Origin: Ulota crispa
Taxonomy: Eukaryota; Streptophyta; Bryopsida; Orthotrichales; Orthotrichaceae
Assembly (NCBI GenBank): GCA_963920765.1
Contig: OY987248.1
Coordinates: 7,660,539-7,724,538 of the forward strand
DNA length: 64,000 nt
Reading direction: 5' to 3'
Below are positions 8,308 through 63,824 of the stretch, in pieces (the first letter of the stretch is position 1; every line of letters starts with the position of its first letter). The notes under the pieces were generated by a model, which saw only the letters and a list, made by a program, of their open reading frames with translations, was not told the origin of the DNA and made no database searches. The translations under genes and the position numbers were made by a program.

Positions 8308-9036
8308 TTAACCCCTAAAGGACCATGGCCTTTATTTTGTCAAAAGACACTCAAAACTGCCACCTCTATGGCAAAGAGTAAAAAAGTTTGGAAAATCAAT
8401 CATTATGCATATCAAACCGTAGGATCTTTTACTAGACTACAATAAGTATGTGTCATACAAAACTCAAGAACTTGGGCCTCACAAATTGGAAGATATGTGC
8501 ATTTAAAATGTAAAAAACAACTTTTTTTGCACTTTGCCTAACTAGATTATTTAACTTTGAACTTTTTAACTTAAAATTTGTGCACCACAAAGTTTGGAAT
8601 TCTATTTTTAGGTGGTGGGGAGTTGAATTGGGAATCTTGGGAAAATTATTAAAACAAAAAAAAAAACAAAAAAAATCATACTTTAAAAAAAAACATTAGG
8701 TAGATTGTCCATAACTTCTCATAACTAGTCCAAATGGAATGAATCAAAGCTTCAGGTGTAGACAAAGATATAACTTAAGAGAAAAAAAAATTAAATTTTC
8801 TTTTCAAGTTTTTATAAGAATTTTTTTTGCTGCCCAGAGTCCCCAAATTTGTACTTCTTTGGGCATAACTTTTGCTACTTGGCATCAATTGGAATAAAAA
8901 TTGTATTCCCCAAAAGCTGATGTGTTTTTCTATCTTCAAAAAAAATTTCAAAAAATTAGGACAAAATTTGAGGCCATAGGTACTTGCCCAAAATCCCATT
9001 TGTCCCCTGTAGGGACAATGGTCCTTCAGGGGTTAA
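8308..9036. mobile_element. TTAA-flanked MITE, piggyBac-like ends (copy 1)
   Basis: The element runs from TTAA-CCCCTAAAGGACCATGG to CCTTCAGGGG-TTAA. It belongs to the subfamily with TTTATTTTGTCAAAAGAC after the left end and the subterminal hairpin on the right (GTCCCCTGTAGGGAC). It is non-coding. It shares its interior with the copies at 49360 and 59298. Confidence 0.82.
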
Positions 9037-9141
9037 ATACAATTTTTTGAATAAACAACATTATACTTAGATGATCAACTTTGTAGGATAGAATAGAAAA
9101 CTCAACAAATTTGATTGGCCTCCTTATTCCCTCCTATAATA

Positions 9142-9720
9142 CTCCCTTTGTTTCTGAAAGAAATCTGTATTTGAGAATTTGTGAGGAACTAAGGAATATT
9201 AACAACAAATTGTAATTGGAAGTTATTGGATATTAGGCTTAAACCATTCCAAACCTTTTTTTTATTTTTTTATAGAATTAAGGTTTTTTTAAAAGGAGAG
9301 AAAATTAGTACCAAAGTTTTGAAATTTCAAGTGTTTTGTTATTAACACAAATGGTTAGAAAAATGATTGATATGAAGTGTGTCAATGCAATTGTAAGTAA
9401 AGAACTAGTTAACCTAGTTGCCCAAGTAGTCCCATTTATAAAAGAAACCAAATCTTTTTGTTGATATTATTGATGATTCTAGCTTAATGATAGGCAAAAC
9501 TTGCAAACAAAAATCCCTAAATCAAGTTTGTAATGCTAACATTAGCAATCAATGAGCATAAAAAGCCCAAAAAATATCACTAAACATGCCAAGTAATTAA
9601 TTTTATTTTAGAGATAAGCATAGGATTATTATTTTTAAATCTACTCAAGAGACAAACACGGGTTTCTTTTTGAAACAAAAAAAAGGCATGAATCCAAGTT
9701 TCTTTCAAAAACAAAGGGAG
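9142..9720. mobile_element. Stowaway-type MITE
   Basis: The ends are CTCCCTTTGTTTCTGAAAG and, inverted, CTTTCAAAAACAAAGGGAG, flanked by TA at 9140-9141 and 9721-9722. CTCCCT-GTTTC ends with a TA duplication are the classical signature of Stowaway elements, non-autonomous relatives of Tc1/mariner. At 579 bp it is longer than most Stowaways and has no coding capacity. Confidence 0.85.
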
Positions 9721-9916
9721 TAAAATTTTCAAAGGCTTGCAACTGATGGCCTCTATTTTTTGGCCTCAAGGCTTTTAGACACGAGAGAATTGGCCCTTAT
9801 TATATTATTATTATTAGAATGGGTGCTTGGGCTATCCTTGACATCATATGGGTTGAAATTTTGGTTAAAATGGCCCCAAGTTTTCATGACCTCAACTTCT
9901 AATGTGAAGCAGCTTA

Positions 9917-10309
9917 AGTGGAAGCACCCATTTCCACCATTGCTCCATACCCAACTAGTAGGGTGTGTTGTTTCCACCATGAGCAAGGATATGTGCTTTG
10001 GAATGCTTTTTTTGTCCTTTTAAGGTTGGGACCACTTAAGTTATGCCACATGTCCCAAAGTGAGGTAGGAAATAAAGAGCCAAAAGTAGTTTGGCTATTA
10101 TAGGAATTGTATTCATCTAGACATTAGCAATGGGTCTAGAACACTTTTTGACTCCCAAAATTCACAATTATTTCAGTTTTACAAATAAAATTATGAAAAA
10201 TTTGCAATCCCAATTTCTCTTATCTTCCTACATGGCAAAAAAACTGCCTTAAACTCTTTGCATTTTTTTTTAGAATTGCTTAAGTTATGGGATATGGGTG
10301 CTTCCACCT
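9917..10309. mobile_element. MITE, TA-flanked, ends AGTGGAAGCACCC (copy 2)
   Basis: The ends AGTGGAAGCACCCAT and ATGGGTGCTTCCACCT are inverted and flanked by TA (9915-9916 and 10310-10311). Length is 393 bp, the same as the copy at 7585, and the interior includes a similar GTCTAGA-rich segment near 10110-10140. Confidence 0.75.
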
Positions 10310-13247
10310 TATACATCTAACAATAAGAGATAATTCCCAAATGAGACTTTTGAGGGTTTGAGTTATATAAGCTAATTTTGAACTTATAACAAAACCCAAT
10401 ACAAAAAGAAAGAAGAAAAGTTGTGCATTTTGAAGCCAGTTGGCAAAAAGTTTTCTTGAAATCTTGTAAAGTAGATGATGTTCGGTGAAAGAAAGAATTC
10501 TCTTGCGTTTAGTTAATTGATAGGTCTGTAATTTGTATTGCAAGGTTCATGAAGGTTGATGTTTCCTAACATGTTTAGCTTACTTTTCTTCAATTAATCA
10601 TGAAGTAATAGGACAAAATAAAGAAATCTGAACGTATTTCAAATCCTATATGTTGAAAGTCCTAGGAGCAACTAATACTAAAAACTATACAAACATAGTT
10701 GATCTTTTCAGTTCCAAGACCAATAACTAAAAACATATACTACACATTCATTTCCTCCTACAAACAACATTTGAATACACTATCTTATTTGTTTATTCAA
10801 ATCTAATCACATCACCTCCCAGAATTTGTTTGTCTTGAAGTAAATTAATATATCACTTGTAGCATAAAAATTATTGAGTTGCTTACAATAGTTACCACTT
10901 TGTCTATCCTAACAATTTACCTTCTATTTGCACAATCTATGTTGTTGACACAATGTACAATATATTACATCAATGACACATACTAATGTTGATTGTTTTT
11001 ATCTTATTGTTAATTTCCTTGGTTGCTTGATGGAATCCAATTTAGAGTTTTTGACCTACTCTAGTTGGTCCCAAAGGCCATACAAAAAGGAGGTCTTCAG
11101 TGGTCATGCCATAATTGCAACACTAGAAAAGTTTTGTCATAATTTCTTAAATCATTTTGAAAAGAATATTCCAAGGTGCTAGTAACTCATAACAACAAGA
11201 TTGATAATGTTATCATAACCTCTTATTTTAACTTTTTAAACATCAAACCTAATCCAAGGAACAAGGTTTTTAGTGTATTTATGAAAACCTCTAATGTTTA
11301 AAGGTTGAAGATCACGTGGAAAAAAGTTCTTCGTGGGTAAATACGTAGAATGTATGACTTGGCCTTGTTAACACCAATTGATTGAATACTATGTCAGATT
11401 ATTTTTTAAAACTTGTTCATTCTTCTCCTACCTTTCATTAGCATACTATAATGCCTTGTTTTCTCATTGTGTTTGTTGTTACATTATGGCTTGTAATTTG
11501 TGCACTTTGATAATTTGTCAATGTTTGGTTTTGCCTTGTTTGTTGCAATCAAATATGGCACATTTGCTATATAATCATTAGTTGCCATGATGATTGATGC
11601 TGGTAAAATTTTGATCCATGGTTATATTTCTTGCTCTTTGTTGTATTCAAGGTGATTGTTTATGTTATGTAAATTCAAATTTCTTGTATTGGCTAAAATT
11701 TTAGACATGTGATTGAGTTTGCCACGATTTGGTAATCAAGATTGCTATACTTCTAAACTACTCAAGATGAAAGGTGGAGTTGGAATATTCCTCTTGGAGA
11801 AATAAAAATTTGGAAACCATAATAATTTTGTAAGATGAATTTTCATCTTAATTTTTTTTTGGAAAAATAAACTTCCAACAATTTGACAGCTATATTTGAA
11901 GATATTATTTTGTTCATCCAGTTCCACAGTGTAAAGTCAAATTTCAAAAATTTAGCACACGAATTGGGATTTCAACACAAGGGTTTAAGTCCATGCAAGG
12001 ACTAAATATCGTTGTAGGAACTTTGCTTTAAAAAAGCAAAACCAATAAATGCTTCCTTGTGTTATGAAAAACCGTATTTTGTTAAAACGTCACAGATTCA
12101 CAAACTGGTAAAATAGTTACATTAGTATGAGAAGAAAATCACAAATTAGCATAAAAAAGCAATAGTTAAACAAAATTGTTCTTGTAAAATAACAAACAAT
12201 TAGTAAAAAAATCCAATAGTGACCACAGGACCATAACAAAGCAATAAAATCAAGCAATAAAAATATACAAACCAACAAAGAATCAACAAATTAGAAACAA
12301 CAGTGGTTAAACACAAAATGTTACAAAACACATGAAATTGGATTTCATGAAAATTTATATTGAATACTTATGTTTTGTATAAACCTCAATACAAGTCAAT
12401 ATTGTAAATCTATATAAAAAACAAAATACCTTAAAATCACTTGCAAGGGCCAAGATGCTCCAAGAACCTCCACTTGGCTTTATCTACAATTAATAAAAGA
12501 ACTCATTTTGGCGACCTGTCCGTTCAGTAGCTAATTAACTTGTTTATTTGTTGTCAAAAAAATAGTTTGTAACAGATGTTAGGTGGTTAGGTTGCCGGTA
12601 AGGCTTCGTCCCTCCTACAATGACTTGCAAAACCCTAGCAATTATACTTGGGAGTTAGGCGGTTAGGTTGTGGATCTTTGCACTTTCTTTGTGCTTGCCA
12701 GTGAGGTTTTGGATCTTTGCATCTTCAATTACATTGTAACATTTATGCTTGAGAATGTGTTAAGGCATTCATTTACCTTGGTAAATGGGTTTACAAGACT
12801 TGTGCTACTCTAAAGTAACTACTTGTTTGAAGTCAAAACACAAAAGTGTACAAAATGAGAAAACTGTGTGCATAGTAAAGAAGTGTAAGATATTCATGAT
12901 AGGTGTATGTATGAGAAGAAAATACACCCCTTATTTAGATTCATAATTGAGCTCATCCTTTTCAACATCCATCTTCACCATTAGATCAAAAATATTTTTG
13001 GTTATCAAGTAATGAGATATACTTATTTGGGATTCCCTAATTGCAATTCCAAATGATAAATTAGATATGTCATAAGGACTAGAGTGATCAAATTAAATTG
13101 AGTAAACCTTATTTCTTTTAAAATAAGATTTTTCTTTGCTTGAAAGTAGAAAACCAAAAGTCATTTTCAAAAATTTATAGAGTAATATATAATTTCTACT
13201 TCTTCTTGAATCCTATGTTGTCAATGTGTTTATATGACTTAGATTCG
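10310..13247. other. AT-rich intergenic sequence, nothing assigned
   Basis: About 2.9 kb of AT-rich sequence with only short ORFs that have no recognisable motif. No matching element ends, tandem arrays or RNA genes were found. It may be decayed transposon sequence. Confidence 0.4.
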
Positions 13248-13480
13248 TTAACACCTAAAAGCCCATTATCCCTACGGGGGACAAAACGGATTTTGGGCAA
13301 TCTTGTTCTATCAAGATTTCTGATCATTTTCTTTGAGTTTTTATTCTAAAATAGAGCTTTGCAAGGGCTACACTCAAGTAAAAAAAATTGAAATTGGAGT
13401 TACAATTCAAAAGTTATTGGTGTAATAAGGGTTTCATTAGTCAAGGGACAATTTGGGCAAACCATTTTTCATTAACTTCT
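13248..13480. mobile_element. Left-end fragment of a TTAA-type element
   Basis: TTAACACCTAAAAGCCCA is followed by a CCCTACGGGGGACAAAAC stretch and a GGATTTTGGGCA segment. This is the same order as the hairpin end of the TTAA family (TIR, hairpin, then GGACTTTGGGCATG). Homology fades after about 100 bp and no right end was found, so the right limit is approximate. Confidence 0.5.
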
Positions 13481-13509
13481 CCCAAAAGCAACTAATGAAG
13501 GCATGACCC

Positions 13510-14181
13510 AGGGAATGCTATTTCATGAGCGGGGATCCGTGAGCCGTGAGCCGTGAGTTGGGATTTTTAGTCAAAATAATAAATTCTACCTATACTTGTG
13601 TACATAGAACTCTATAATTGTGCATTTTAAACTAGGGAATTGATATGTGCACACTAGGGGTTGGTATTTGCACACCCCTAGGAGGTAAATTATAGATTTC
13701 TACCATCAAAAAGCTGAATTTGAGAATTTTAAATTCAAATTTGGACTCATAGACCATGATTTACTCTGGAACCATAAAAAAAGTTGCAATTGAACCACAC
13801 CCAATGAAAAAGCTTGTCTTTTTTCCAAACAAAAGTAAAAGTAACACTTTCCCCCTAGTAAGCTTTTTCACTAGGTTGTGTTCAATTGCAACATTTTTTT
13901 ATGGTTCTAGACTAAATCATGGTCTCTAAGTCCAAATCTAAATTCAAAATTCTCAAATTCATCTTTCTGATGATAGAAATCTATAGTTTACCACCCATGA
14001 GGTGTGCAAATATCAACCCCCCAATGTGCACATATCAATTCCCTTAAACTATCATCTCTTGAAAAACTTACTATTTTTTAGTTATTCCATTGATTTTGAG
14101 TTTAGAATCTGTTCTTGCTCACAAAATCTTGAATCCTTGCTCATGGCTCACCGTTTTATGCTCACCAAATAGCGTCGTCTA
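13510..14181. mobile_element. Mutator-type MITE with a perfect 9-bp target duplication, interrupted by another element
   Basis: The exact 9-bp repeat GCATGACCC lies at 13501-13509 and 14182-14190. The ends are AGGGAATGCTATTTCATGAG and the inverted GCTATTTGGTGAGC. A 9-bp duplication is typical of Mutator-like elements. Without the 13635-14043 insertion the element would be about 255 bp, matching uninterrupted relatives at 25111, 56464 and 62397. It is non-coding. Confidence 0.85.
13635..14043. mobile_element. hAT-type foldback MITE nested in the Mutator-type MITE
   Basis: Ends GGGAATTGATATGTGCACA and TGTGCACATATCAATTCCC are flanked by an exact 8-bp duplication TTAAACTA (13627-13634 and 14044-14051). 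Almost the whole 409 bp folds into one hairpin. The 8-bp duplication points to the hAT superfamily. A second copy lies at 18810-19221. Confidence 0.88.
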
Positions 14182-14190
14182 GCATGACCC

Positions 14191-15500: not shown

Positions 15501-15504
15501 CAGA

Positions 15505-16832: not shown

Positions 16833-17960
16833 AAATCAACAGAAATTTTGGAATCTTTTGAAGATCTTTTGGGAATTTTTTGTGAATCTTTAAGAATCTT
16901 CAAGAATCTTTTGGGAATCATTGAGAATCTTTTCATGATTTTTAAGAATATTTAAGAATCTTTTCAAGATTTTAGAATCTTTGAGAATATTTTAGGGATC
17001 TTCATGAATCTTTGGAAATCTTTCGGAATCTTTTCAAGTTTTTTTGGAATCTTAGAGAATGTTTGAGAACGATTGAGAATCTTTGAGAATCTTTGAGAAT
17101 CTTTTAGGAATCTTTGAGAATCTTTGAGAATCTTTTAGGAATCTTTGAGAATCTTTGGGAATCTTTTCAAGTTTTTTTGGAATCTTTGAGAATGTTTGAG
17201 AACAATTGAGATTCTTTGAAAATCTTTGAGAATTTTTGAGAATCTTTTAGGAATCTTTGAGAATCTTTTCAAATCTTTGAGAATCTTTTCAAGTTTTTTT
17301 GGAATCTTTGAGAATGTTTGAGAACAATTGAGATTCTTTGAGAATCTTTGAGAATCTTTGAGAATCTTTTGGAATCTTTGGAAATCTTTTCAAGTATTTT
17401 GGAATTTTTAAGAATGTTTGAGAACAATTGAGAATCTTTGAGAATCTTTGAGAATCTCTTTGGAATCTTCAAGAATCTTTGGAAATCTTTGAGAATCTTT
17501 GAGAATCTTTTAGGAATCTTTGAGAATCTTTTCAAGTTTTTTTGGAATCTTTGAGAATGTTTGAGAACAATTGAGATTCTTTGAGAATCTTTGAGAATCT
17601 TTGAGAATCTTTTGGAATCTTTGGAAATCTTTTCAAGTATTTTGGAATTTTTGAGAATGTTTGAGAACAATTGAGAATCTTTGAGAATCTTTGAGAATCT
17701 CTTTGGAATCTTCAAGAATCTTTGGAAATCTTTGAGAATCTTTGAAAATCTTTTAAGAATCTTTGAGAATCATTTGGAATCTTTGGGAATCTTTTCAAGT
17801 ATTTTGGAATCTTTGAGAATGTTTGAGAACAATTGAGAATCTTTGAGAATCTTTGGAAATCTTTTGAGAATCTTTTTTGAAATTCAAAAAATCTTTGAAA
17901 ATCTCTAAGAATTTTCAAGAACCTTTTTGGAATCTTTGAGAATCTTTTTAAAATCTTTAT
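16833..17960. repeat. Minisatellite of GAATCTTTGA-type units with a 243-bp higher-order repeat
   Basis: A core of 11-12 bp (GAATCTTTGAGA and variants) repeats about 90 times. On top of it a 243-bp block repeats: the segment beginning AAGTTTTTTTGGAATC occurs at 17291 and 17534. Minus-strand open frames across it translate only this repeat (Lys/Ser/Phe/Ile-rich) and are not genes. Confidence 0.92.
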
Positions 17961-18809: not shown

Positions 18810-19221
18810 GGGAATTGATATGTGTACCACACTCTTCCAATTACTATACCACACCATGAGGTAAATTTTAAATTTCTATCATCAAAAAGCTGAATTTGAA
18901 AATTTTGAATTCAGATTTGGACTTAGAGACCATGGTATTGTCTAGAACCATAAAAAAAGTTGCAATTCAACAACACCCAATGAAAAAGTTTAATTAGGAA
19001 GAAAATTGTTAATTTTACTTTTGTTTGTAAAAAAAGATAAGTTTTTTCATTGGGTGTTGTTGAATTGCAACTTTTTTTATGGTCCTAAACAATACCATGG
19101 TCTCTAAGTCCAAATTTGAATTCAAAATTCTCAAATTCAAATTTTTGATGGTAGAAATCTAAAATTTACTCCAAGGGTGTGGTACAGTAGTTCAAAGGGT
19201 GTGGTTCACATATTAATGCCC
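18810..19221. mobile_element. hAT-type foldback MITE, second copy, inside the CACTA element
   Basis: It starts GGGAATTGATATGTG and ends with an inverted, diverged partner ATATTAATGCCC. Internal blocks such as AAAAAGTTGCAATTCAACA and GGTCTCTAAGTCCAAAT match the copy at 13635-14043. The flanking 8-mers no longer match exactly, so this copy is probably older. Confidence 0.8.
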
Positions 19222-20096: not shown

Positions 20097-20912
20097 TTTC
20101 TAACCAATAAATGATTGAGTAGCAAGGATGGCTACATCTTTTTTTTATAGATGTAAAGTTGGATGGTTTCAATCTTTCATCAAAGCTAAATCTCATGATG
20201 GTTTTTTGAAAAATTAGAATATTACACCAGTAGGATGAAGGGACATGAAGTGGAACCCTGAAAATTGGGCTCCTACTCCCAAATCTATGTATAAAAGTTG
20301 GCTAATATTTTACATTAAAATAAAACACTATAGAACAAATAGGCACACCGATTTTGGTGTAGCAAAAAGCAATAATTAGCACAAAATGTATTTACTGAGC
20401 TTGACTAGTGAAAATCTACCTCAACCCTACCTCAATACAATTTTTTATTTTCTTATTGTGTTGAGGTAGAGCTCAACCCACCCCAACACCACAAAAAAAT
20501 AAAAGCTTGTGCTGAGGTAGGGTTGAGGTAGAGCTCAATCCACCTCAACACAATAAGAAAATAAAAACTTGTATTGAGGTAGGGTTGAGGTAGATTTCCA
20601 CTGGTCAAGCTCAGTAGAAACGTTTTACGCTAATTATTGCTTTTTGCTACACCAAAATTGGTGTGCCTATTTGTTCTATAGTGTTTTATTTTAATGTAAA
20701 ATATTAGCCAACTTTTATACATAGATTTGGGAGTAGGAGCCCAATTTTCAGGGTTCCACTTCATGTCCCTTCATCCTACTGGTGTAATATTCTAATTTTT
20801 CAAAAAACCATCATGAGATTTAGCTTTGATGAAAGATTGAAACCATCCAACTTTACATCTATAAAAAAAAGATGTAGCCATCCTTGCTACTCAATCATTT
20901 ATTGGTTAGAAA
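20097..20912. repeat. 816-bp near-perfect palindrome (uninterrupted part of the inverted repeat)
   Basis: Arms of about 370-400 bp are almost identical (for example ATTACACCAG at 20221-20230 pairs with CTGGTGTAAT at 20779-20788). The centre near 20504 is diverged and holds GAGGTAGAGCTCAACC-type subrepeats. No recognisable transposon ends were found. It could be a foldback element or a recent inverted duplication able to give hairpin RNA. Confidence 0.9.
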
Positions 20913-26354: not shown

Positions 26355-27287
26355 TTAATCCCTAAAGGGCTGAGCCATTTCTTTCGTGAAAATCACTCAA
26401 AACTGTCACTTTGGGGGGGTTAGTAAGAAGGTAATTTTTTTTGAAAATTTGGGAAATCCCACCGTAGGATCTTGCCCTAGACTAGATTAGGTACTTGTGG
26501 AAAATAATCAGGTCATTCTAGATGGACATGAGTGAGATATCTACATCTAAAGTGAAAAGAAAAGTTTTTTTATGCTGCCGCAAAATTCAAAAGCCTTTGA
26601 CCATTCTTACATGAAAATAATTGCTCTACGCAACTTTGCGCTTTATTTTTCGCATGTAGGAGATCAAGTTAGCTATGTGTGGGAGAATTTTCAAATCAAT
26701 TGGAACTATACAACACATAGGAAAAATCAATAAGTAAAAAGGAGTAGAGAATGAGTCAAATCACTAAATTGTTAATAATTTAATTATTAAAATGAAAAAT
26801 GCTAACCCCAACAGTTATAATGTTGTGATAAACAATTTACATCCTTTGGTTTTTTTTTTTTTCCAAAATAATAAAAATTGAGTAAAATAAAGGACTTCAA
26901 AGTTTATTTTAGTGTAGAGATTCCATAACTGCCCGCAAACAAAAACTCCTCATAAATTTCATGTCATTGATTGAAATTGAATGATTCAAAGCTTCTCACC
27001 TATAAAAAAAATCTAAAGAACCAATTTCAAGTTTTGATTTTTAAGAAAAAAGAAAATTTAAGAAGTTTTTGGATTGCCGGGCGGGCAGTCCTCCCTTGCT
27101 TTTCAGATTTTCATGCATAACTTCTTCAATAATAGTAAGAATGAGGAAAAAATTAGATGCCCGCGTAGATCTTTGAATTCCCCACCTTCAACAAAAGTTT
27201 CAAAAAATCACACAAAGTAGCTTATCCAAAGGTACATGCCCGAACTCCCTTATGTCCCCTGAAGGGACAACAATCTTTAGGGGTTAA
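26355..27287. mobile_element. TTAA-flanked MITE (copy 2), sharing its right TTAA with the next element
   Basis: It starts TTAATCCCTAAAGGGC and ends CTTTAGGGGTTAA. The subterminal hairpin GTCCCCTGAAGGGAC is on the right. The TTAA at 27284-27287 is also the left flank of the following element. Confidence 0.82.
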
Positions 27288-27904
27288 CCCCTAAATGCCT
27301 GAGACACCAAATTTGGTGTTGACAATACTCTGAAGTTTGATAAACCTAACTAATTTTTTTAGGATTTTACATTTTTGAATTATTCTTTTTGAAGTCTAGT
27401 TTTTGCATCAAAAATATTAGTTTGAAAATGATTAATTCTGATTTTTCTATTAGAAATTTTGTACAAGGGTCTTGACTTATTGTAGTGTTGAAAGCTCTTG
27501 GAAATGAGTCTAAATACACTAGGTCTTGGAAAAAAAATCACATCATAAATTCATTTAAGAAAATTCTAGAAGAGATTTTGAAAAGCCGTAAATTGATTGG
27601 AGTTAAGTATGTTAGGTCCTTTATCCTTGTATTTTTTTGGTGATTTTTTTAATTCAACATGTGAGAAGAGGATTGAAAAACTTTAAGTCGTTTTTGCAGT
27701 TTTAACACCCTCATGATTAAACATTATAATCTTTCAATCCATAAGTGATATTATTGTGTTTTCTTTTCCTATGTGATCTTCAACATATCTAGTTTGAATT
27801 TGTACGGTAAAAGAAATTATATAGCTTATTAAAATGTTGGCTTTTGTTCAATTTAGAGCAAATTCCTAGAAGATCAAAAAATGCCTCAAGCATTTAGGGG
27901 TTAA
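27284..27904. mobile_element. TTAA-flanked MITE, CCCCTAAATGCCT subtype
   Basis: It starts TTAACCCCTAAATGCCTGAG and ends GCATTTAGGGGTTAA. It is 621 bp with an interior unlike the main subfamilies, though it contains an AATTTGGTGTT motif. It is non-coding and joined directly to the copy on its left through one TTAA. Confidence 0.8.
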
Positions 27905-27949
27905 ACGCCAATGTACATGATATTGGTTTGATGAATGATAAAAAAATAT

Positions 27950-28225
27950 TTTGCTTGATGTAAGAAAGTCAATTTTCATCCTTTTTTTTTAAAGTGATCA
28001 TGAAGGCATGGTGTATCATGGAAGGCAAAAACAACCTCATTGAATATAATTGTATTTTTAGGTACCCCAAGTTGTGAGAAGATTTCACAAAAATGATGCT
28101 AGGCTCCATGCTTCCCTTCTTGCAATTTCATGAGGACAACATGTAATGCTAGTTTATGCAACTTTTTGACAATAATATTAAATTATGTGAGCACTTTGCC
28201 ACACCATTGTAACTAGCAATTTCCA
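27950..28225. repeat. Dispersed repeat R1 (empty-site copy)
   Basis: This segment (CTTGATGTAAGAAAG through TTAAATTATGTGAGCAC and TTGTAACTAGCAATTTCC) is related to 34160-34860 and, inverted, to about 54300-54460. It lacks the hAT-type insertion found in the 34-kb copy, so it shows the empty site. The family is unknown. Confidence 0.6.
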
Positions 28226-28629
28226 TGTTTAGAGCACCCCGCTTTTGTTCATAGGATAAGCATATTGTTTAAGGGCTAAATTACCTTTTCTTTGATGAAC
28301 TTTTTCCCTTTCCTTTTTCCTTAATACAATGCAAGATAATATAAATCAACAAAGACCTAATAACCATATGAGCTCTTCATAATACCCTCCAATAAATTGA
28401 AACTTTTTATAAGTACAAACATGAAGATCTTAGGACAAAAGTTACAAAAACATATGTTCAAAACTATTACTTGCCATAAAATAAATTATTGGCATTCAAA
28501 GTTGACAATTCTTTTACACTTTTGACCAATAATTTGTTGATTGACGGTGTCTTCCACTATGTTGTTTTATGTTTTTCATTTTCTACTTTTAATTTTTTTT
28601 CCATCTTCCTACTTTTCCAATGACGTAAT

Positions 28630-28984
28630 GATGAGAGGTGCCACGTAGTCTCCTCATTTTCCACGCAGGGGAAAGAATCTCGGAGACGGGAAAACATGAG
28701 AAAGCAAGGGGCTGAGAGCGCTTGGCGTCTTCAGCTTGGCTTTCCCCTCACAACGAATCACGTGGCGCCAGTGGGAACAGCGCCCAAGCTCAAAAGCCCA
28801 TAATATCCGACATCCTCCTTCATGTTCACGTCCTGTCCGACCAATATCAACCTACACCCCGGGTGTCCATTCACATCCCGGGTATCAATCCACATCCAGG
28901 GTATCAAATCGCAGCCTGGGTAGCAATCCTTCTACACTCTGTACTAAAGAAGACTATACTGAATATTGCATATAGGTTGCCTTG
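28630..28984. other. GC-richer patch with four ~19-bp tandem units
   Basis: Between 28851 and 28927 four diverged units of about 19 bp (for example TCACATCCCGGGTATCAAT) lie head to tail. The 220 bp before them are also GC-richer and contain CACGTGGCGCC. Open frames here overlap on the same strand with no recognisable domain. It may be a promoter remnant or captured sequence. Confidence 0.35.
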
Positions 28985-29225
28985 ACAATTAAGGTGCCTT
29001 ACCATAGTAAATTATCTCATGACTCATCACTTGGTCACTTGGAGGCGCATGAAATTCTCTAAATATTGAATTTCACATGGTTTATGACTTGGAAGCCATC
29101 AATTTGTTTCTTTTGCAACTTTATTGTCAAGCCCTTCAAAAACTATTTTATTGCAGCAATTTTTGATAAAAATTACTGTAGCAATGGTAAATACTTATAT
29201 AATGTGAAATGTTGAGAAATTAGTG
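28985..29225. repeat. Dispersed repeat R2, copy 1
   Basis: It is similar over about 240 bp to 54575-54800; landmarks are CATCACTTGGTCACTTGGAGGCGCATG and AGTGTGGGACAACCTAA (compare CACTTGGCCACTTAGAGGCG). A short tail of the same repeat recurs near 38625-38640. There are no coding features and the element type is unknown. Confidence 0.6.
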
Positions 29226-29375
29226 TGGGACAACCTAAACGCAATATTTAGTGGAGGAAACACGAAAACTAGGGACAACTCCCTGCAGAAGATCAGAGCA
29301 GATCGGAGGCAGTTCACACTGCTGTCCCAAGTTCCAAGTCCTACTAAATTGGTTGAGAGTTTGAAAATTAGAACT

Positions 29376-30290
29376 TTAACCCCTAAAGGACCATTGTCCC
29401 TTTGGGGGACAAGTTGGACTTTGGGCATGTACTTATGACTAAACTACTTTGTGTGATTTTCTCAAACTTTTATTGAAGGTGGGGAATTCCAAGATCTATG
29501 TGGGCATCTAATTTTTTCTTCATTTCGACATTTGATGAAGAACTTATGCATGAATTTATGAAAATTGGGGAGGGCTACCCATCTGGGCAGCCCAAAAACT
29601 TCTGTTATTTTTTTTTTAAACAAAAATTTGAAATTGGTTCTTTAGATTTTTTGTTCAAAGTCAATTTCAATCAATGACATGAAAGTTATGAGGAGTTTTT
29701 GTTTGCGGGTAGTTATGGAATCTCTACTCTAAAATAAACTTTGAAGTCCTTTATTTTCCACAATTTTCAATATTTTGGAAATAAAATTAAACCAGAGGAA
29801 GTAGTTTGTTTATCACAACATTATAACTGTTGGGGTTAGCATTTTTCATTTCCATTATTAAATTCTTAACAATTTAGTGTTTTGACTCATTCTCTACTCT
29901 TTTTTACTTACTATTTTTTCTCATGTGTTGTATAGTTACAATTCATTTGAAAATTCTCCCACACATACCTAACTTGATCTCTCCTACATGGAAAAAAAAA
30001 GCGCAACTTTGGGTAGAGCAACTTTTTTGTTATAAGAGTGGTCAAAGGCTTCTGAAATTTTTGGGCAACGTGGAAAAAAACTATTTTTTTCACTTTAGAT
30101 GTAAATATCTCACTCCTTTTCATCTGGAATGAGCTGATTTTTTTCCCATAAGTACCTCTTCTAGTCTAGGGCAAGATCCTACAATTAGATTTCTCAAAAA
30201 CAAAATATAAAATCCTTTTTTCTAAACCCTGTAGAAGTGGCAATTTTAGTGATTTTCAGAAAAAAAAGAGCTTGGTCCTTTAGGGGTGAA
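29376..30290. mobile_element. TTAA-flanked MITE (copy 3)
   Basis: It starts TTAACCCCTAAAGGACCA, followed at once by the hairpin TTGTCCCTTTGGGGGACAA; the right end is TCCTTTAGGGGTGAA, with the outer TTAA changed to TGAA. Length is 915 bp. The interior is shared with 33048, 36726, 43420, 52328 and 53196. Confidence 0.82.
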
Positions 30291-31009: not shown

Positions 31010-31242
31010 TTAACCATTAAAGGACCATAGGGCATAGTATATACATTGCCGTATAATTAGTATTTGCTATCAATAAGAAGTTTTAATTTGGGATCTCAAG
31101 TAGCTCACTAGAACCGCTTTGATCTATTCTCCAATTTTTTTGTTGATCTTAAATGTAGTAGAGGTGTGGATCCATTCCAAATACAAGAAAAATACCCCGT
31201 ATTGTATTGGTCGCAGCCGCATACTCAGTCCTTTAGGGTTAA
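31010..31242. mobile_element. Short TTAA-flanked MITE, 233 bp
   Basis: It starts TTAACCATTAAAGGACCATA and ends AGTCCTTTAGGGTTAA, so TTAA is intact on both sides. It has the family ends but its own interior, with no coding. Confidence 0.65.
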
Positions 31243-31574: not shown

Positions 31575-31655
31575 TTAACCCCTCACTGCGCTAAGGAACA
31601 AAATATGTCACATGCATTGTTTTTCGTTCAATTACCTAGTAAGGTGAGGGGTTAA
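31575..31655. mobile_element. Minimal TTAA-flanked element, 81 bp
   Basis: It starts TTAACCCCTCACTGCGCTAA and ends AAGGTGAGGGGTTAA. Only about 75 bp lie between the two TTAA tetranucleotides. It is the smallest member and may approach the minimum sequence that the mobilising enzyme needs. Confidence 0.7.
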
Positions 31656-47300: not shown

Positions 47301-48279
47301 TTAAGAGTGAATATAAGAGTTAGCAATGATTATTATTGTTTATGTTCATTATGTAATAATCATGTGCATGTAGTTTACCCTATTATCGTCGGGCCTTAGA
47401 CAAAAAATCAGTAAAAAAAATAGTTATAATATATCAAATGACATGATTGTGGTCTCATCTGAAAGATAATCAAGTCAAGGTTTTGTATTAAGTTCCAAAT
47501 TCTTAAATGAGTGAAGTATGAGTTAGTTATTAAGGTTTCAATGAGGTAAGGTTAAGGTTCATCCTGAATTTGAAATTGCCATATTATCACTTTCTTATCA
47601 CTTTCTTAGAGGTTTTCATTGTCATACATGATAATATTTTATCATTTTCATTTTTGAACTTCTTCTCCCTTTCCTTGACCTTTGTGGTCATCCATAAGTG
47701 CTAACCTAATTGACAATTTTCATTTGTTTGTGATATTTTGCAACTCACATTGCTATAGCTAAGGCGTTGGGCCAATAAATTGTATATCTACTAAGGTCTT
47801 TATAAGTAATGCACTATATCTTTTGCAAATTTTGGCCAAATAGAACAAAAATTGCACTACTAGTAAAGGACTTAAAGGCATTTCTTGCAATACTTGCCCT
47901 AAAAGATGTGAATTTTTGGAGATAGAGAAGTGATAATAGAAACACAGTGATAATAGGATAAACTACTACTCTTAGCTTGTTTGTACAACACATGATGTTT
48001 TTCCTTGACTTGTAAGACATGCACACTCTACACTAAAATGTTTAAAAATGAAGGCTGTCCTCTAAAACGTGTTGAGATAAATCCTAATTTTGGAACTTAA
48101 TTCTTATAATACTCAAATTGGTAAGGTTTCTCATCCTACAAGTCTAGGAAGACATATTTAAACAAGCAACATTAAAAACCTTACTATTGGATTTACAACA
48201 AGTCACATTTAATTCAAATGGATTCATCATTGCACTTATCAATGTTTTTCAATTTAAAGGTTATAAAAAATAGAAGGCC
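44366..48279. other. AT-rich intergenic sequence, nothing assigned
   Basis: Nearly 4 kb without a recognisable gene, RNA or paired transposon end. Two short related segments (ATAGTGAAACAATGTTGAAA near 44960 and ATATTGAAACAATGTTGAAA near 45090) hint at an old local duplication. It may be decayed transposon sequence. Confidence 0.4.
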
Positions 48280-48282
48280 AAT

Positions 48283-49502: not shown

Positions 49503-49721
49503 TTAACCCCTAAAGGGCCCTTCGGCTCTGGAGATATGATACCAAATACGGTTGCAACCAACATTCAAAAGTTTGAATCTACTAGAAATTAAGTGTTACA
49601 ACCGTACATATTGAAGGATTGTATGATGGTGGGTGCATAAAAAAATTGGAAAGCCCTCAAAGCAACTCAAATACATCTGTACATACAGCCGCAAAGGACT
49701 TTCGAGCCATTGAGGGGTTAA
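49503..49721. mobile_element. Nested TTAA-flanked element A, 219 bp
   Basis: It starts TTAACCCCTAAAGGGCCCTT and ends GCCATTGAGGGGTTAA, and interrupts the host copy between AAGAATGTG and CAAAAATTC. The undisturbed paralogue at about 59435-59453 reads AAGAATGTGGAAACAAAAAT, so the insertion point is clear although that copy no longer has TTAA there. Confidence 0.82.
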
Positions 49722-52185: not shown

Positions 52186-52189
52186 TCAA

Positions 52190-53199: not shown

Positions 53200-54156
53200 C
53201 CCCTAAAAGCCCAAGTGGTCCCTTGGGGCCCAAGTGGGGTTTTGTGCATGTACTTACAACCAAACTATTTTGTGTGATTTTTTGAAACTTTTATGAAAGA
53301 TGGGGAGTTCAAAGATCTGAGTGGTCATCTCATTTTTTTTTTTCATTTCGACATTTATTGAAGAAGTTATGCATAAATAACTAAAAAACAAGGGAGAATC
53401 GAGCAGCTCAAACCAAAAAAATTGTGTTTTTTTTTAATAAAAATTTGAAATTGGTTCTTTAGATTTATGTATATGTGGGAAGCTTTGAATCATTCACTTC
53501 TGATTGATGAGATGAAAGTTATGAGAAGTTTTAGTTTGCCTATAGGTATGGGACTCCCAAACCTCCATTCCTTTTGCCCCTTGTAAAATTTCATGCTTTA
53601 CTTTTTTGAGCTCTTTGTGTATTTGTTTTTTGACTTTTTTTTTCCAAGTTGTAGTAGACTAAGATTCCTTGGTTTTTACCATTTGGATCAAAGTAACTTA
53701 GATTTTTGAATTTTACATATATCCTCCAATTTTGCCTACTGTATATGCAAATTCCATGGCCTTACGGCATTGCAAGATTTTACAAAGTATGATCCACACC
53801 TCCAATTCATTTGAAAGTTATCCCACACATACCTAACTTGGTCTTCTACATGGGGAAAAAAACCTCAACTATGTGTAGGGCAATTTTTTTGATATAGGAG
53901 CTATCAAAAGGCTTTTGAAACTTTTGGGCAGCAAGGAAAAAAGCTTTGTTTTTTCACTTTAGGTGTCAATATATCACATGTGTACATCTAGAATGAGCTG
54001 ATTTTTTTCCAGAAGTACCTCCCATAGTCTAGGACAAGATACTAGGGTTGGATTTTGAAAAAAAAACAAATTTTCCTACCTTTCTACTCATTCCTCCAAA
54101 AGTGGCAATTTTGAGTGACTTTCACAGAGAAAAGGGCTTGGGTCTTTAGGGGCTAA
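53196..54156. mobile_element. TTAA-flanked MITE (copy 9), abutting copy 8
   Basis: It starts TTAACCCCTAAAAGCCCA and ends GTCTTTAGGGGCTAA (outer TTAA changed to CTAA). The hairpin on the left is weaker (GGTCCCTTGGGGCC). 961 bp, same orientation as its neighbour. Confidence 0.82.
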
Positions 54157-54460: not shown

Positions 54461-54574
54461 TACTTCTAGAAAAATCAAACAAAAAACATCTTTTCTCTAT
54501 TCTAGAAAGTGTTTTTTTGATAACCAAGGGACAGAAATTGTCATCTTTGACATTTAAGGGTTAATAATAAGGTT

Positions 54575-54800: not shown

Positions 54801-54813
54801 GACTATTTTGTGT

Positions 54814-56463: not shown

Positions 56464-56711
56464 ACAATACTATTTGGTGAGGGTAAAACGATGAGCCATG
56501 AGGAGTGAGTCAAGCTTTTGTGAGCGGGATTTGATTTGAAGCTCAAATTCAATGGAAAAACTAAAAAAAACATCTAGTTTTTCAAATGATGAAAAAATAA
56601 AATGCACAAATATAGGGCCTATATGCACGTTAAAGCACGTTAAAGGTAAATTTAACATTTTGACAAAAAAAATCCAAGCTCACGGCTCCCTACTCACAAT
56701 ATAACATTTCT
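56464..56711. mobile_element. Mutator-type MITE, GCTATTT-GTGAGC family (copy 3)
   Basis: It starts ACAATACTATTTGGTGAGGG and ends with CTCACAATATAACATTTCTC. Internal landmarks (TTTTGTGAGCGGG, TTTTGACAAAAAAAATCCAAG) match the copies at 25111 and 62397. A local GCACGTTAAA duplication lies at about 56627-56644. Confidence 0.65.
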
Positions 56712-57485: not shown

Positions 57486-57889
57486 AGGTAGAAGCACTAT
57501 AATATGATACTATTCGTTTTCGGACACCTATAAATGAACTTGTATCTAAACCATCAGGTATCCAAATCAGACATGCAAGTCAGCTAAAGCTATTACCATA
57601 ATTGAATATTGGAACAAAAATTGTGTAGGTAGTAGCATGTGACATGATCAATTTGATGTTGCATTTGCATTTCAATACAAGCAATTCAATGAGGGTCTAG
57701 TGTCCACAATAGGTGTGTCTATGGAGTTACCTTCAACAATTTGTAGCTTATTCATACAATCTCAAAAATTCCAAAAACAAATTTTTAGCACTCTCTGCTG
57801 GTTTCCAACCATTCTACAATCTCAAAATCTCCATGCACACCCCTGGTGAATTGATGTAACAAAAGTGTCACAATTAGGTGCTTCTACCT
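57486..57889. mobile_element. MITE, TA-flanked, ends AGGTAGAAGCAC (copy 4)
   Basis: AGGTAGAAGCACTATAATAT on the left and TTAGGTGCTTCTACCT on the right, TA on both sides, 404 bp. The interior (GGGTCTAGTGTCCACAATAG and CTTATTCATACAATCTC) is the reverse complement of the copy at 7585. Confidence 0.78.
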
Positions 57890-59297
57890 TATAGAACCCC
57901 TGCAAGCATGTTTTTGCAATTGTGAAAATTATAATGGTGTTAACCAGAATACGGCAAAATATAGGGTTATTTTCAAAAGAATCCCTAGAAATATCAATCA
58001 CTTTTCAATAAGGAGCTGAGGGGTGTGGACTTTCCAGAACCACCTGATGATGTCAGCACGGCCCATGTTTACACGTTTGGCAGAGGTCAGGGTTCTGCTA
58101 TTTACATCCATTTAAAAAATAGAACTTAAGTGATGAAGCTAATTACATTCATGGGTGTGAGCAAAGCATGTAAAACGTGGATGAAAAAAATAAAAAATAA
58201 AAATCACGTATCTCAAATCATGTACATTCATTCACAAAAGCCAACACTAAGCAGTGGCCTTTAGATATGAGAGAGAAAAGAATTCATTATTTGCTTCTTA
58301 TAACAAATGCTTGAGGTTGATCTTGAGTCCACGTGGGCTAACATTTTGTTTCAAATAGCTCCAAGTAAGATATGACAAACCCTCCTTGTTTGAATTCACG
58401 CTCATGTTTGAATTCACGCTCATGTTTGAATCCGAGTCAAGAGTTCCCTTCAAAATGCTGCTAAATTTATCAAAACGTGAACCCTTTTTCTGTGTTTTTA
58501 GAAGCTCCAAGATAATGTGAATACCATGGTGTTAAATGTGAATTAAAAGGATATTTAGCAGTATTTTTTTTTAACCTCTTTAGCTGATTATGCAAATCTC
58601 ATTTGAAACCACTGACTGTAGTAGCTCAGAACCTTGAGTTCAGTTATACTTCACCTATTTAAGATGAAGATCTTAGTAGTGATTTTATTCCCTGGAAACT
58701 GTTATATAAAGAATGCTGGAATGCCCCAGCTATAGGAGTCTCATGTGATTATAATGATTGCTCTAAAATAAACGAACAACCTTTAAAAACCAACAATTTT
58801 TCTTTTTCTTTTTCCCAATTGGAATGGCGGGTGAAATATTTGGCAAAATAGAAAGGAAGGAAAAGCATTACTTAGCTAATCCTAACTTCTAGAAACCCCC
58901 TTTACAGTAGAGGTGAAAAGCCGTGGAGAGCAAAATTTCAGCCAATGAAAACTACAAAAGTTGAGAAAACTAAACAATGTTACTTTACTTCGGAAGTTTG
59001 TTTTTGAAGTACAAGAAAAAGAAAAATGAGGTGTACAAAACTTTTGTTTTTGGTAGTAATGAAAGTTTATAATTTTTGGGGTCCTCTAGCCCAACAAAAA
59101 AGGTGGGTTTGACTAAAATTCCAAGGACCATTTGGCTAAAATTCTCCCTTACTATCTAAAAATTTTGGATTTCAAACCAAAGGCTATTACTTCCAAAAGC
59201 CAGCTTTTCAAGAACAAACTATGGCCCATGAGCATTTTCTTCACGGCTTCTTTCTTCTAATGAAAGGGGGGGGGCCTAAGTTGGACGAGGTAGACCA
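57890..59297. other. Intergenic sequence, nothing assigned
   Basis: About 1.4 kb without recognisable coding or transposon ends. A 20-bp direct repeat (TTTGAATTCACGCTCATG, near 58388-58427) gives the repeated residues in a short minus-strand ORF at 58298-58510, which I do not regard as a gene. Confidence 0.4.
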
Positions 59298-60220
59298 TTA
59301 ACCCCTAAATCCCTGGGGCCTTTATTTTGTCAAAAGACACTCAAAATTGCCATTGCTATTGCAAAAAATAATTTTTTTTGAAAATTGATCTTTTTTCATA
59401 TCTAATTGTAGGATCTTGTACTAGACTAGTATAAGAATGTGGAAACAAAAATTCAAACTTTTCGATTGCACATATTGCAAGATATTGCGTTAAAAGTGTA
59501 AAAAACAATTTTTTTTGCACCTTGCAAGACTAGATTATTTGACTTTGAACTTTTTTAACTTAAAATTTTTGCACTACAGAGTTTTGGGGTTTATTTTTCA
59601 ATGGTGGAAAATTGAGTTGAGAATCTTTGGAAAAAATTAAAATAAAAAATAATTAATTTTCATTCTTTAAAAAAAGTTAGATAGAAGAAGGTATGAGACT
59701 GAACAAAAACTTAAATTGTTAATAACCCTACAATGGAATTGAAACACAATAATCCCAATAGTGAGATTGTTCTAGAAAGCAAACTTCACCCTTTCCAACA
59801 ATTTTTTTTTTGAATGTTAAAAATTGCATTCAAAAACAAATTTTATAAGTTATTTTTTCAAGAAGATGCTTGAATTGCCCATAAAACAAGATTGTCCATA
59901 ACTTTCTCATAACTAGTCCAAATGGAATGAATCAAAGTTTCAAATGTAGAAAAAATTATAACCTATGAGAAGAAAAAAAAAAAAATAAGAAATAAAAACT
60001 TGTAACAAAATACTTTACATGATCTCCATAAATTTTTGCTTATCTAAACATAACTTTTTATCCCAAGCATAGATTGGAATAAAATTAGATTCCTCAAAAG
60101 CTAATGTGTTTTTCTATCTTCAAAAAAAATTCAAAAAATCAAGAAAAAAATTAAGGCTGTAGGTACTTGCTCAAAATCCCATTTATCCCCCAAGGAGACA
60201 CACAGGGATTTAGGGGTTAA
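59298..60220. mobile_element. TTAA-flanked MITE (copy 10), intact relative of copy 7
   Basis: It starts TTAACCCCTAAATCCCTG and ends GGGATTTAGGGGTTAA, 923 bp, TTAA on both sides. It lacks the two insertions seen in the 49360 copy and therefore serves as their empty site. Confidence 0.85.
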
Positions 60221-61822
60221 AGTATTGTGTTTGAGAAAATTTCTATATAGCCTATGAAAACACCAAAATTGATAAGCATTTGTAAGTTTGCAAAGGCTTG
60301 GTTGTAATTAATAACAAATGTGAGGACAGTATGAATTGTGGAAAAGCATATATTTATATTGAGATTATTCATTGACATTCACGCTGAGAGGTTTGTTACA
60401 TGAAGTACCCAATCCATTGTCTACATGGTCAAAATTGACTAAACTTAGAAAATCGTCACATGCAAATAAGACGTTTTTACAAATACAATGATTTAAGTCC
60501 CACATATGTGGAAACTTGGGTGTAGATCCATTTAAATATGTTTATACGTTTTTAAGGTACTTGTGTTTAGTTTTCAAATGATTGTATGATATAGACTTTC
60601 ACAGCTTATACTTGCAAATCTTCTATTATTCAAAGAGCACAACCTTAAAAACCAAACTTTTCAAAACACAAGTATGGCCCTATAAAAGCACCTTCAAGAA
60701 GCAAATAATATAAGAATCTAAAAAAAAACTAAGACAATTGAAATTTGACATTATGAATTCAAATTGGACATAAAGTTTAAGCCTTTATTTTTATTTTTAA
60801 ATTTCATTCAAATTTTGTGGATATTTTGGATTACAGTTCTCGTTTTTTGTTGGTAATTTCTGATGTGTGCAATTGTAAGCCCAACCATATGGATTTGATA
60901 CATGAATCATAGTCTAAATTTTTTGTTGGAAATTTTTCATTGAATGATTTTTCTAAATGCAATCAATACTACATCTTTGTATTTTGAAAATCTGAATTAT
61001 CCTTGTTTATTAGGAATTCAAAGCAAGTACTAAGAAAACAAGCTCATTCATAGGCTCGCTCGCATGTCTCACAAAGATTTGATGTTTGTACAGTGTCAAA
61101 GGACCGTTCAAAATATGTTCCATGCTCCAACTCCACAAGTCCTAATGCCAAATTTCTCAACTTTGTTGAATCTGAAATTGCACCAACAAACATGCCAAGC
61201 CTGGGGGGCCATGGTTTCTTCTCTCTCTTTTTTCAAAGTTGGTGCCAATAAGAGCTCTTTTCATGTCTAGATTGGATATATTGCAACATTACAACATTGG
61301 CAACATGCCTGGTTAGACGAAAATAAAAAGATGACCATTGTTCATGGAGAAATTTTAGGTTCACCCGCTAAAGTCCAGCTTTCCCATTTTCAACCATTTT
61401 TACAAATACACATGCACCAGATATTTGATATATTTATATCAAGCATGTACTATATTAGTTTTTTAATTTTTTGAAAAATCTGACGTACTTTTGCAAATTA
61501 AATTTCACCCGGCTGAAAATATATTAAATGCCGGTTTACCTCAAACACTAGGGGGGACACACCTATAGGGGGCCTCCTTAGAAGGCATTATCCTACTGAC
61601 AGGAATTCAAGAGAGTTTCTGAAACTTGCACATGCCCTTGAGGGAATAACAGCCCTGAACCCCCCCTCAGGACCGGGCTCAGGCCCTCAGGGCTATCAAG
61701 TCCTTGTGTAGAAGCTCCCTTAAACCCCTGACATGGGAACTTCATAACTCCTTTTATTATTATAAATGTTTAGTTTTCTTAGAAAACCCAAGCTTACAAC
61801 GGTGTTTAGAAGTATCCACTAA
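60221..61822. other. Intergenic sequence, nothing assigned
   Basis: AT-rich with a slightly GC-richer patch at 61545-61740. Short plus-strand ORFs (61064-61270, 61704-61889) have no recognisable domain. No RNA gene was seen. Confidence 0.4.
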
Positions 61823-62241
61823 GGGCATCCCCAATGCAGCCGTAATAGAGGCAGGCAAAAGCTTGTGCAGTGGTTTAAATTGGATTTGAGCAAAAATATG
61901 GGTTCCAGTGCAGCAGGTAAACCATACTGCATTTTTCAGGGCTCCCCACATAAGAGCCCCTCTCTTGCAAATTTTCACTATTTGGAAAGTCCTGCATACC
62001 ACTCCAGCTTTGACACTGACGCAATTTCAGGGAATTTTAGATACTTCTGACATGAATTAGTCACATATAAGCACTTAAAAAAAACATAGACTATTAAAAA
62101 CTCATGTTTAGTGAGTGTCAGAGCTTGTGTGCATTGGGGCTACTGCACTGCGGAAATGCCCTTGCTCTGCATCTGACGCAAAATGACACACGGTTTGACA
62201 AAGTTTGGGGAGCCAATATCCTGGCTAGATTGGGGATGCCC
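61823..62241. mobile_element. PIF/Harbinger-type (Tourist-like) MITE
   Basis: GGGCATCCCCAATGCAG on the left and the inverted ATTGGGGATGCCC on the right are flanked by a TAA duplication (61820-61822 and 62242-62244). A 3-bp TAA/TTA duplication with GG-start ends is typical of the PIF/Harbinger superfamily. 419 bp, non-coding. Confidence 0.75.
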
Positions 62242-62396
62242 TAATATCACATTGCATGCTCCATGTGGTCAATTTACCTTAAATGTCATATTTAAGTAGT
62301 TTTAAAGAGTCCAAAGTACATAAAACAATAGCTACCCTTGTCCTAAGGGGAAAAAGAAAAATGAGAGGTTTTCTTGATCTAGATCAATCTAGAAGG

Positions 62397-62645
62397 GGAA
62401 TGCTAAATCGTGAGCAGGGATTTGTGAGCTATGAGCCTAGATTTTTTGTCCAAATATAAATTTTTACTTATAAATGTGTAAAGAGGGTCATATAATTGTG
62501 CATTATAAATGTTCATCTGTTAAAAAATTTGTTATTTTTTTTAAAAAATTCATTGGTTTTAAGCTCAAAATTGGTTCCTGCTCACAAAATCTTGGCTCAC
62601 TGCTCATGGGCTCACCATTTTACACTCACAAAATAGCACTGTCTA
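62397..62645. mobile_element. Mutator-type MITE, GCTATTT-GTGAGC family (copy 4)
   Basis: It starts GGAATGCTAAATCGTGAGCA and ends CTCACAAAATAGCACTGTCT. The interior (TGAGCTATGAGCC, GCTCACAAAATCTTGGCTCA) matches the copy at 13510. The flanks TCTAGAAGG and CTCTAGAGG may be a decayed duplication. Confidence 0.68.
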
Positions 62646-62847
62646 CTCTAGAGGTGCTAGCCCATGTTCAAACAGATTAGCTTTGATGAATGCCTTTTCG
62701 GGTTGTTTTGAGGTCATATCCTTGGACCCACCATTGCCGGTTTCACTTAGAAAGTAAAATTTGTAAAGTAAGGTGGGAGGGTGTAGTGAAATGCTCTATC
62801 TTCTGAAGAACAATAACAAGGCGACTAATTAGCCCTAGGAAACTTGC

Positions 62848-63134
62848 TTATCCCCTAAAGGCCTAAGCCCATTTTTTGGGTGAAAATCATTAAAAATTGC
62901 CACTTTTGGAGGAATAAGGATTTGTAGGGAAAAAAAGTTTTGTTTGGAAATCCAATTGTAAGATCTTGCCCTAGACTATGGGAGGTACTTGTGGGAAAAA
63001 ATCAGCTCATTCTAGATGTACACAAGTGATATATTGACACCTAAAGTGAAAAAAAAGTTTTTTTTCCTATTGCCCAAAAATTTCAAAACCCTTTGACCAC
63101 TCCTATATCAAAAAAAATGCTCTATGCAAAGTTG

Positions 63135-63165
<31 letters not shown>

Positions 63166-63824
63166 CCGTGTAAAAGACTAAGTTAGGTATGCGTGGGATA
63201 ATTTTCAAATGAATTGGAGGTGTAAATCAAACTTTGTAAAATCTTGCAATGCCGTAAGGCCATGAAATTTGCATATACACTAGGCAAAATTGGAGGATTT
63301 AGGTAAAATTGAGAAATGTGAATTACTTTAATCCAAATGGTGAAAACCAAGGAATCTTAGTCTATTACAACTTGGGAAAAAAATCAATCAAAAAACAAGT
63401 ACACAAAGAGCTCAAAAAAGTAAAGCATGAAATTTTACAAGGGGCAAAAGGAATGGAGGTTTGGGAGTCCCATACCTACCACCAAACTTGAGAGCAAACT
63501 AAAACTTCTCACAACTTTCATCTCATCAATCAAATTTGAATGATTCAAAGCTTCCCACATATATAGAAATCTAAAGAACCAATTTCAGATTTTTTATTTT
63601 AAAAAATGTGATTAAAAAACATTGTGCTCCCGCCCCTCCCCCCATTTTTCAAAATTTCATGCATCACTTCTTCAATAAATGTCGGAATGAAGAAAAATGA
63701 GAGGCCCAAGTAGATCTTTGAATTCCCCATCTTTCATAAAAGTTTCAAAAAATCACACAAAGTAGTTTATCTGTAAGTACATGCCTAAAACCCCACTTGG
63801 CCCATGAGGCCTTTAAGGGGTTAA
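62848..63824. mobile_element. TTAA-flanked MITE (copy 11), opposite orientation
   Basis: It starts TTATCCCCTAAAGGCCTA (outer TTAA changed) and ends GGCCTTTAAGGGGTTAA. It is the reverse orientation of copies such as 53196: the GTCTAGGGCAAGATC block appears here inverted on the left. It contains a run of 28 T at 63138-63165. Confidence 0.82.

Follow-up and report, generated by a model that had tools for sequence, protein, structure and literature searches.

TTAA-flanked MITE families in the moss Ulota crispa and their probable mobilisation by piggyBac transposases of the same genome

We analysed a 64,000-nucleotide stretch of the Ulota crispa genome (contig OY987248.1, positions 7,660,539 to 7,724,538; hereafter the window) and propose with high confidence that the MITEs it contains were moved by piggyBac, the main CCCCTAAAGG family and a 613-bp family having been mobilised by two related groups of transposases. 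This supports the original prediction, which had interpreted the elements as piggyBac-type from the letters of the window alone. Three observations carry the proposal: the elements are flanked by TTAA, which is duplicated upon insertion; MITEs and transposase elements have ends in common; and the right half of the main MITE resembles the 3' regions of transposase loci.

The window holds 16 two-ended elements with CCCCTAAAGG-type ends and lengths of 73-1593 bp (Table 1). Their union amounts to 13,172 bp, or 20.6% of the window, and TTAA flanks ten of the 16 on both sides and 25 of the 32 sides overall. The elements are short, non-coding, two-ended, high in copy number and devoid of a transposase of their own, as expected of MITEs, and the TTAA-flanked MITE set noticed earlier in the window is confirmed. 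The recount bore out the prediction of at least 16 elements and its size span of 81 bp to 1.6 kb, the smallest element measuring 81 bp when both TTAA are counted. The predicted share of about 18% and the predicted 11 elements with TTAA on both sides come close to the values found here. The list was set by hand from end pairing and the pairs used in the empty-site search described below. Two self-pairs of 28-29 bp were dropped, the pair 26359-30286 was divided into 26359-27283 and 29380-30286, 31579-31651 entered from the empty-site pairs, two overlapping alternative pairs were omitted and one right end was shifted by one base, from 63819 to 63820. The weakest ends are those of 31014-31239 and 31579-31651. 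At a tolerance of one mismatch the window contains 30 CCCCTAAAGG ends, 17 of them flanked by TTAA. Allowing two mismatches raises the number to 69, of which 24 have TTAA, versus 32-66 matches, 1-8 with TTAA, for four control words, two of which are similar to the real end; this level is noisy and barely above the control words in number.

Table 1 Two-ended elements in the window. Positions are those of the window; 3' homology denotes similarity to transposase 3' regions.
Element	Start	End	Ends	Flanks	Remarks
MITE, 721 bp	8312	9032	CCCCTAAAGGACCATGG / CCCCTGAAGGACCATTG	TTAA both sides	Second internal family
Element, 1557 bp	13252	14808	CACCTAAAAGCCCA / CCCCTAAATGCCCAAG	TTAA both sides	Encloses a different palindromic repeat, 13633-14044
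MITE, 925 bp	26359	27283		TTAA both sides	Main family; right TTAA common with 27288-27900
MITE, 613 bp	27288	27900	CCCCTAAATGCC / CCCCTAAATGCT	TTAA both sides	Separate family; resembles L021:8906-9550
MITE, 907 bp	29380	30286		Left TTAA, right TGAA	Main family; inverted copy of 26359-27283
Weak element, 226 bp	31014	31239		TTAA left only	
Short element, 73 bp (81 with both TTAA)	31579	31651	CCCCTCACTGC / CCCCTCACCTT		
MITE, 942 bp	33052	33993		TTAA both sides	Main family; 3' homology in right ~500 bp
MITE, 976 bp	36730	37705		Decayed, TCAA / TTGC	Main family; 3' homology in right part
MITE, 938 bp	43424	44361		TTAA both sides	Main family; 3' homology in right ~475 bp
Element, 1593 bp	49364	50956		Left TTAA, right TCAA	Second internal family; hosts a nested insertion
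Nested element, 211 bp	49507	49717		TTAA both sides	Empty site in related copies
MITE, 864 bp	52332	53195		TTAA both sides	Main family; right TTAA common with 53200-54152
MITE, 953 bp	53200	54152		Left TTAA, right CTAA	Main family; 3' homology in right ~520 bp
MITE, 915 bp	59302	60216	Identical 14-bp ends, CCCCTAAATCCCTG	TTAA both sides	Second internal family; includes empty-site relative of 49507-49717
MITE, 969 bp	62852	63820		Left TTAT, right TTAA	Main family; 3' homology on the side near 62852

The elements form several groups that are unrelated internally and have their ends in common. The main group is represented in the window by eight copies of 864-976 bp, mostly 74-80% identical to one another. 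Because these copies differ by about 25%, amplification of the main family looks old. Besides the second internal family, with three members in the window, there is a further group with CCCTTTA ends (L026 and L038), whose copies are about 88% identical. The 613-bp element and its relative at L021 constitute a group of their own; clustering had placed the former in the main group, but solely because of an overlapping composite pair. There are other groups besides these.

Other repeats were noticed in the same region. At 13633-14044 and 18810-19221 lies a palindromic repeat, about 410 bp long and bounded by GGGAATTGATATGTG-type ends, which recurs within the L024 transposase element; an end of this repeat also adjoins the element of L052. 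It is another MITE-like family. Long fold-back repeats at 521-1322 and 20097-20912 have arms of 374-376 nt that are 94-97% complementary, and they are without CCCCTAAA ends. On the minus strand, 17269-17769 carries a 166-codon open frame composed of a repeated SKILKRF-like unit; it is best described as tandemly repeated DNA, not as an evident gene.

The abundance of the ends was examined over the 274.8-Mb assembly (157 contigs, window included). Exact TTAACCCCTAAA occurs 30,972 times (15,477 + 15,495) versus 77 (41 + 36) for a reversed-letter control, and exact TTAACCCCTAAAGG 15,411 times (7,719 + 7,692) versus 1 (1 + 0); these numbers are far beyond chance. The TTAA-specific insertion proposed for the family held up genome-wide, with TTAA directly before CCCCTAAAGGACCA at 7,555 of 8,876 sites (85.1%). 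A third, sister end type, CCCTTTARNGACCA, is preceded by TTAA at 1,951 of 2,218 sites (88.0%), and TTAACCCCTAAATGCC was counted 4,241 times. Exact TTAACCCCTAAA is about twice as dense in the window as in the genome (15 versus 7.2 per 64 kb), and scaling the window share down accordingly gives an estimate of roughly a tenth of the genome for these elements. The ends also contain the plant telomere heptamer CCCTAAA, which had been ascribed to chance. Sister transposase families of the same genome end differently, in CCCCTCAT, CCCTTTAG and CCCTTGAC, and have only CCCYT in common; the heptamer is therefore best seen as chance, and a link between the ends and telomeres was rejected.

In the search for empty sites, 29 candidate pairs had their two flanks joined and compared with 288,112 bases; some of the pairs represent a single element in overlapping loci, and some overlap each other. 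Empty-site relatives were found for four insertions, namely 49507-49717 and those at L004 (again as L005), L029 and L038. The relative of the L029 site, in L021, keeps one intact TTAA; at the other three the bases of the relative have drifted, and none of them has a second copy. These alignments support the view that TTAA would be a duplicated target rather than part of the element. Flanks were joined in the same way for five transposase elements. Those of L025 matched through the junction at window 47794-47897 (71%, E 1.3e-7), those of L026 gave only a 26-base match in L036 (E 0.003), and those of L021, L024 and L028 had no match across the junction. The two genome-wide TTAA percentages and the empty sites of four insertions agree with the TTAA target and 4-bp duplication of piggyBac, and inverted ends starting CCC or CCYT, also characteristic of piggyBac, are present in the MITEs as well as in the transposase elements.

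Two pairs of back-to-back elements in the window, at 27283/27288 and 53195/53200, have a single TTAA between them. Genome-wide, two exact ends meet on one TTAA at 335 sites versus 125-205 expected from random placement, a range that depends on TTAA density (the value of 125 was computed by hand from the 448 TTAA of the window). Duplicated composites could explain this excess.

A profile search of the genome with PF13843 (DDE_Tnp_1_7) returned at least 120 matches, a lower bound in that 116 of 528 candidates were scored, with a few matches being two pieces of one copy. By eye, ten of the 120 are free of internal stops; these counts ignore introns, in which some of the stops may fall. The copies are mostly broken. 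All five open segments that were tested matched PF13843, and at E 0.001 none of them matched a different Pfam family. When compared with solved structures, the open segment of L024 matched piggyBat (9c0f, E 1.7e-16) and 6x67 (E 3e-13), an entry titled only "Transposase" that we take to be the Trichoplusia ni enzyme. Of the motifs around the three catalytic aspartates, the first, second and third were found in 12, 14 and 13 of 20 loci (10 kb each), and all three in six of the 20; the match to the second motif in L029 is probably due to chance. As to the C-terminal cysteine-rich domain of the superfamily, the open segment of L023 has a tail that by eye is rich in C and H. As predicted, the window itself has no source transposase: tblastn with the open segments of the 20 loci gave no match to it at E 1e-3. 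The mobilising enzyme had been regarded as unknown; candidate transposase groups with matching ends and 3' homology now largely fill this gap. On the plastid contig, rbcL, trnR(CCG) and an open frame that we take for accD follow one another in this order, an arrangement indicative of a bryophyte and, taken with the genome size, most likely of a moss. Locus L042 (C97:118173-118940 plus flanks) is of another nature. Here an accD-like frame comes after the 3' portion of plastid rbcL, and this plastid DNA runs in frame into coding sequence that is rich in GC and, by eye, of bacterial appearance; a chimeric assembly or a contaminating contig is the probable cause.

To locate element ends, flanks of the 20 transposase loci were scored for matching ends. 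The best scores were 15, 13 and 13, followed by values of at most 12, the maximum of the reversed control; one of the 13s, that of L035, derived from a MITE end. Flanks paired across different loci scored 13 or 14 in ten of 380 cases, a null that is hard to use as real ends recur among loci. As only the highest scores surpass the control, the boundaries were taken from aligned copies and not from this score. L021 aligns with L030 across 5.0 kb at 90% identity, and the match is bounded by TTAA and CCCCTCAT/CCCTTCAT ends, one of the four flanks being TTCA. The L024 element, about 5.7 kb long, reads TTAA-CCCCTAAATGCCTAAA ... CCCCTAAATGCCTAAG-TTAA, with 15 of 16 bases inverted, and is thus of the TTAA-CCCCTAAATGCC type at both ends. 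Its right boundary recurs at L035 (TTAA), L046 (TCAA) and L047 (decayed); the left end of the element of L047 was seen in L048, and the left end of L035 itself is not intact. A relative at C9:1935688 (L049/L050), 57% identical, has TTAA on both sides and ends CCCCTAAATGCC / CCCCTACATGCC. The ends of the 613-bp MITE in the window nearly equal those of this group. Elements of the CCCCTAAATG type thus contain PF13843 between two matching ends, as had been sought. Candidate ends at L035 (left) and L036 (right) were rejected as alignment showed at least one end in each case to be that of a neighbouring MITE, and one at L023 was rejected as alignment suggested the same. MITEs are so abundant that chance can bring one of their ends next to a transposase, and we judged this to be so at L023, L035 and L036. 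The 3.5 kb to each side of L027, L031, L032 and L038 contained no TTAA with CCC after it, and at most of the remaining loci an end was seen on one side only.

The second transposase group, six loci that are 39-42% identical to L024, appears to be linked to the main MITE family. Loci of this group lie at C8:11102601, C1:38399241, C5:24512102, C4:11553259 and C9:12442823. Groups were defined by identity and shared 3' regions, without a tree, and eight short stretches were read beside seven loci, of which two adjoin the C9 relative while the other six cover the 3' side of one second-group locus apiece. In five of these six loci the 3' regions show homology both among themselves and with the right part of the main MITE (up to about 500 bp), with 69-83% identity to the latter; the best match in the window is 53635-54133 (E 7e-93), and the sole exception, L054, has a different 3' region. 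L051 and L052, the only two loci read to the end, terminate in TTAA-CTCCTAAAGGACCG and TTAA-CCCCTAAAGGACCAAGG, respectively, that is, in TTAA with CCCCTAAAGGACC or a one-base variant of it; the stretches of L053, L055 and L056 extend only part of the way to the ends. L051 and L052 become dissimilar past the TTAA that they have in common, and this boundary is therefore the end of the element. Within the shared 3' part, where block means are mostly 0.6-0.8, transposases and MITEs are about as close as transposases are to each other, and upstream of the last ~500 bp the similarity is weaker (blocks of 0.54-0.71). A left end of the CCCCTAAAGG type was found neither in three left-side stretches of L052 (two of which are separated by a gap of about 390 bases) nor in one of L051, and no copy with exact CCCCTAAAGG-type ends on both sides occurred among the loci read. 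Judged from the 3' side that was read, the link between the second group and the main MITE would be strong on one side only. The autonomous copies with matching ends that had been called for were thus found in part: at both ends for the CCCCTAAATG type and at the right end for the CCCCTAAAGG type.

We propose that a piggyBac transposase would recognise inverted ends of the form CCCYTNAN..G.CC, excise the element and insert it into TTAA, which would be duplicated in the process, the catalytic steps being those we infer. Two related transposase groups of the same genome, which carry ends of those kinds, probably mobilised the main family, of CCCCTAAAGG type, and the 613-bp family, of CCCCTAAATG type, and families alike only in their ends may have been cross-mobilised.

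A TTAA target alone is not diagnostic of piggyBac, so the MITEs might instead stem from another superfamily that inserts into TTAA, such as Kolobok or Sola3, with the piggyBac copies as unrelated neighbours. We regard this as very improbable. The MITEs have not only their ends but also 200-500 bp of 3' sequence in common with piggyBac loci of the same genome, which largely refutes it, and CCCYT-type ends are described for piggyBac in the parts of two papers that were available (PMC2872659, PMC10813416). Less credible still are MITEs of the PIF/Harbinger (TTA/TAA) or Tc1/mariner (TA) type with TTAA as a coincidental extension. These are common MITE types in plants, according to the portion consulted of PMC10004981, but all four bases are conserved genome-wide at 85-88%, the transposase with these ends is piggyBac, and the counts refute this reading.

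A variant of the piggyBac explanation deserves more weight, although we consider it unlikely: the main MITE family would then not stem from a piggyBac element, but a MITE would have entered an ancestral piggyBac at its 3' end, or taken the place of that end, making the homology secondary while piggyBac still mobilises both. The second group is known from its 3' side, neither L051 nor L052 yielded a left end and similarity weakens above the last ~500 bp where it was read, all of which would fit such a capture. On the other hand, the 3' part is about equally close among transposases and to MITEs, and two copies that differ in their flanks both have its boundary precisely at TTAA.

piggyBac is well known in animals and, from insects, has become a standard genetic tool. 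The closest parallel to the present elements, judging from the accessible text of PMC2872659, is the CMITEs of the coral Acropora and AmiPB1, with TTAA duplications, CCCT-type ends, neighbouring MITEs and a MITE family that matches a piggyBac-like element of the same genome. The coral MITEs also have a conserved internal region. The coral is an animal host, whereas here the host is a land plant and three end types number about 2,000, 4,200 and 15,400 exact ends. The moss copies resemble piggyBac and piggyBat in their transposase domain, TTAA target and DE and DN motifs, which align to piggyBat. They differ in that most carry internal stops and in length, at about 5.0 kb (L021) and 5.7 kb (L024) versus 2,472 bp given for the T. 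ni element in the excerpt of PMC10140906. In plants, the sections of the sources at hand include piggyBac in a superfamily list (PMC4438587) and in an angiosperm MITE list (PMC10004981), mention its identification in plants (PMC10140906, PMC10813416) and give it 1,230 entries with 0.00% coverage in a fern repeat table (PMC6890710). In those sections it is mentioned in passing only, in line with the earlier remark that it is rarely reported in land plants, and the plant surveys describe no large family together with its transposase, unlike the case here. No title or abstract on a large land-plant piggyBac MITE family was found in our literature search, outside whose scope lay most subscription journals and bioRxiv preprints. 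The element is of a known kind; the plant case is unusually large, and a land-plant report of such scale was not found.

With at least 120 transposase matches and about 31,000 exact TTAA-CCCCTAAA ends, the timing of piggyBac acquisition by plants becomes testable, as do the pairing of MITEs with transposase groups and the presence of the same families, unclassified, in other bryophytes. We tentatively suggest, at somewhat less than even confidence, that piggyBac has become one of the leading DNA transposons of this moss lineage, with several transposase groups that each have their own MITE families, built on the ends of that group, and together occupy perhaps a tenth of the genome. If true, this would represent a large plant radiation of piggyBac, possibly started by horizontal transfer.
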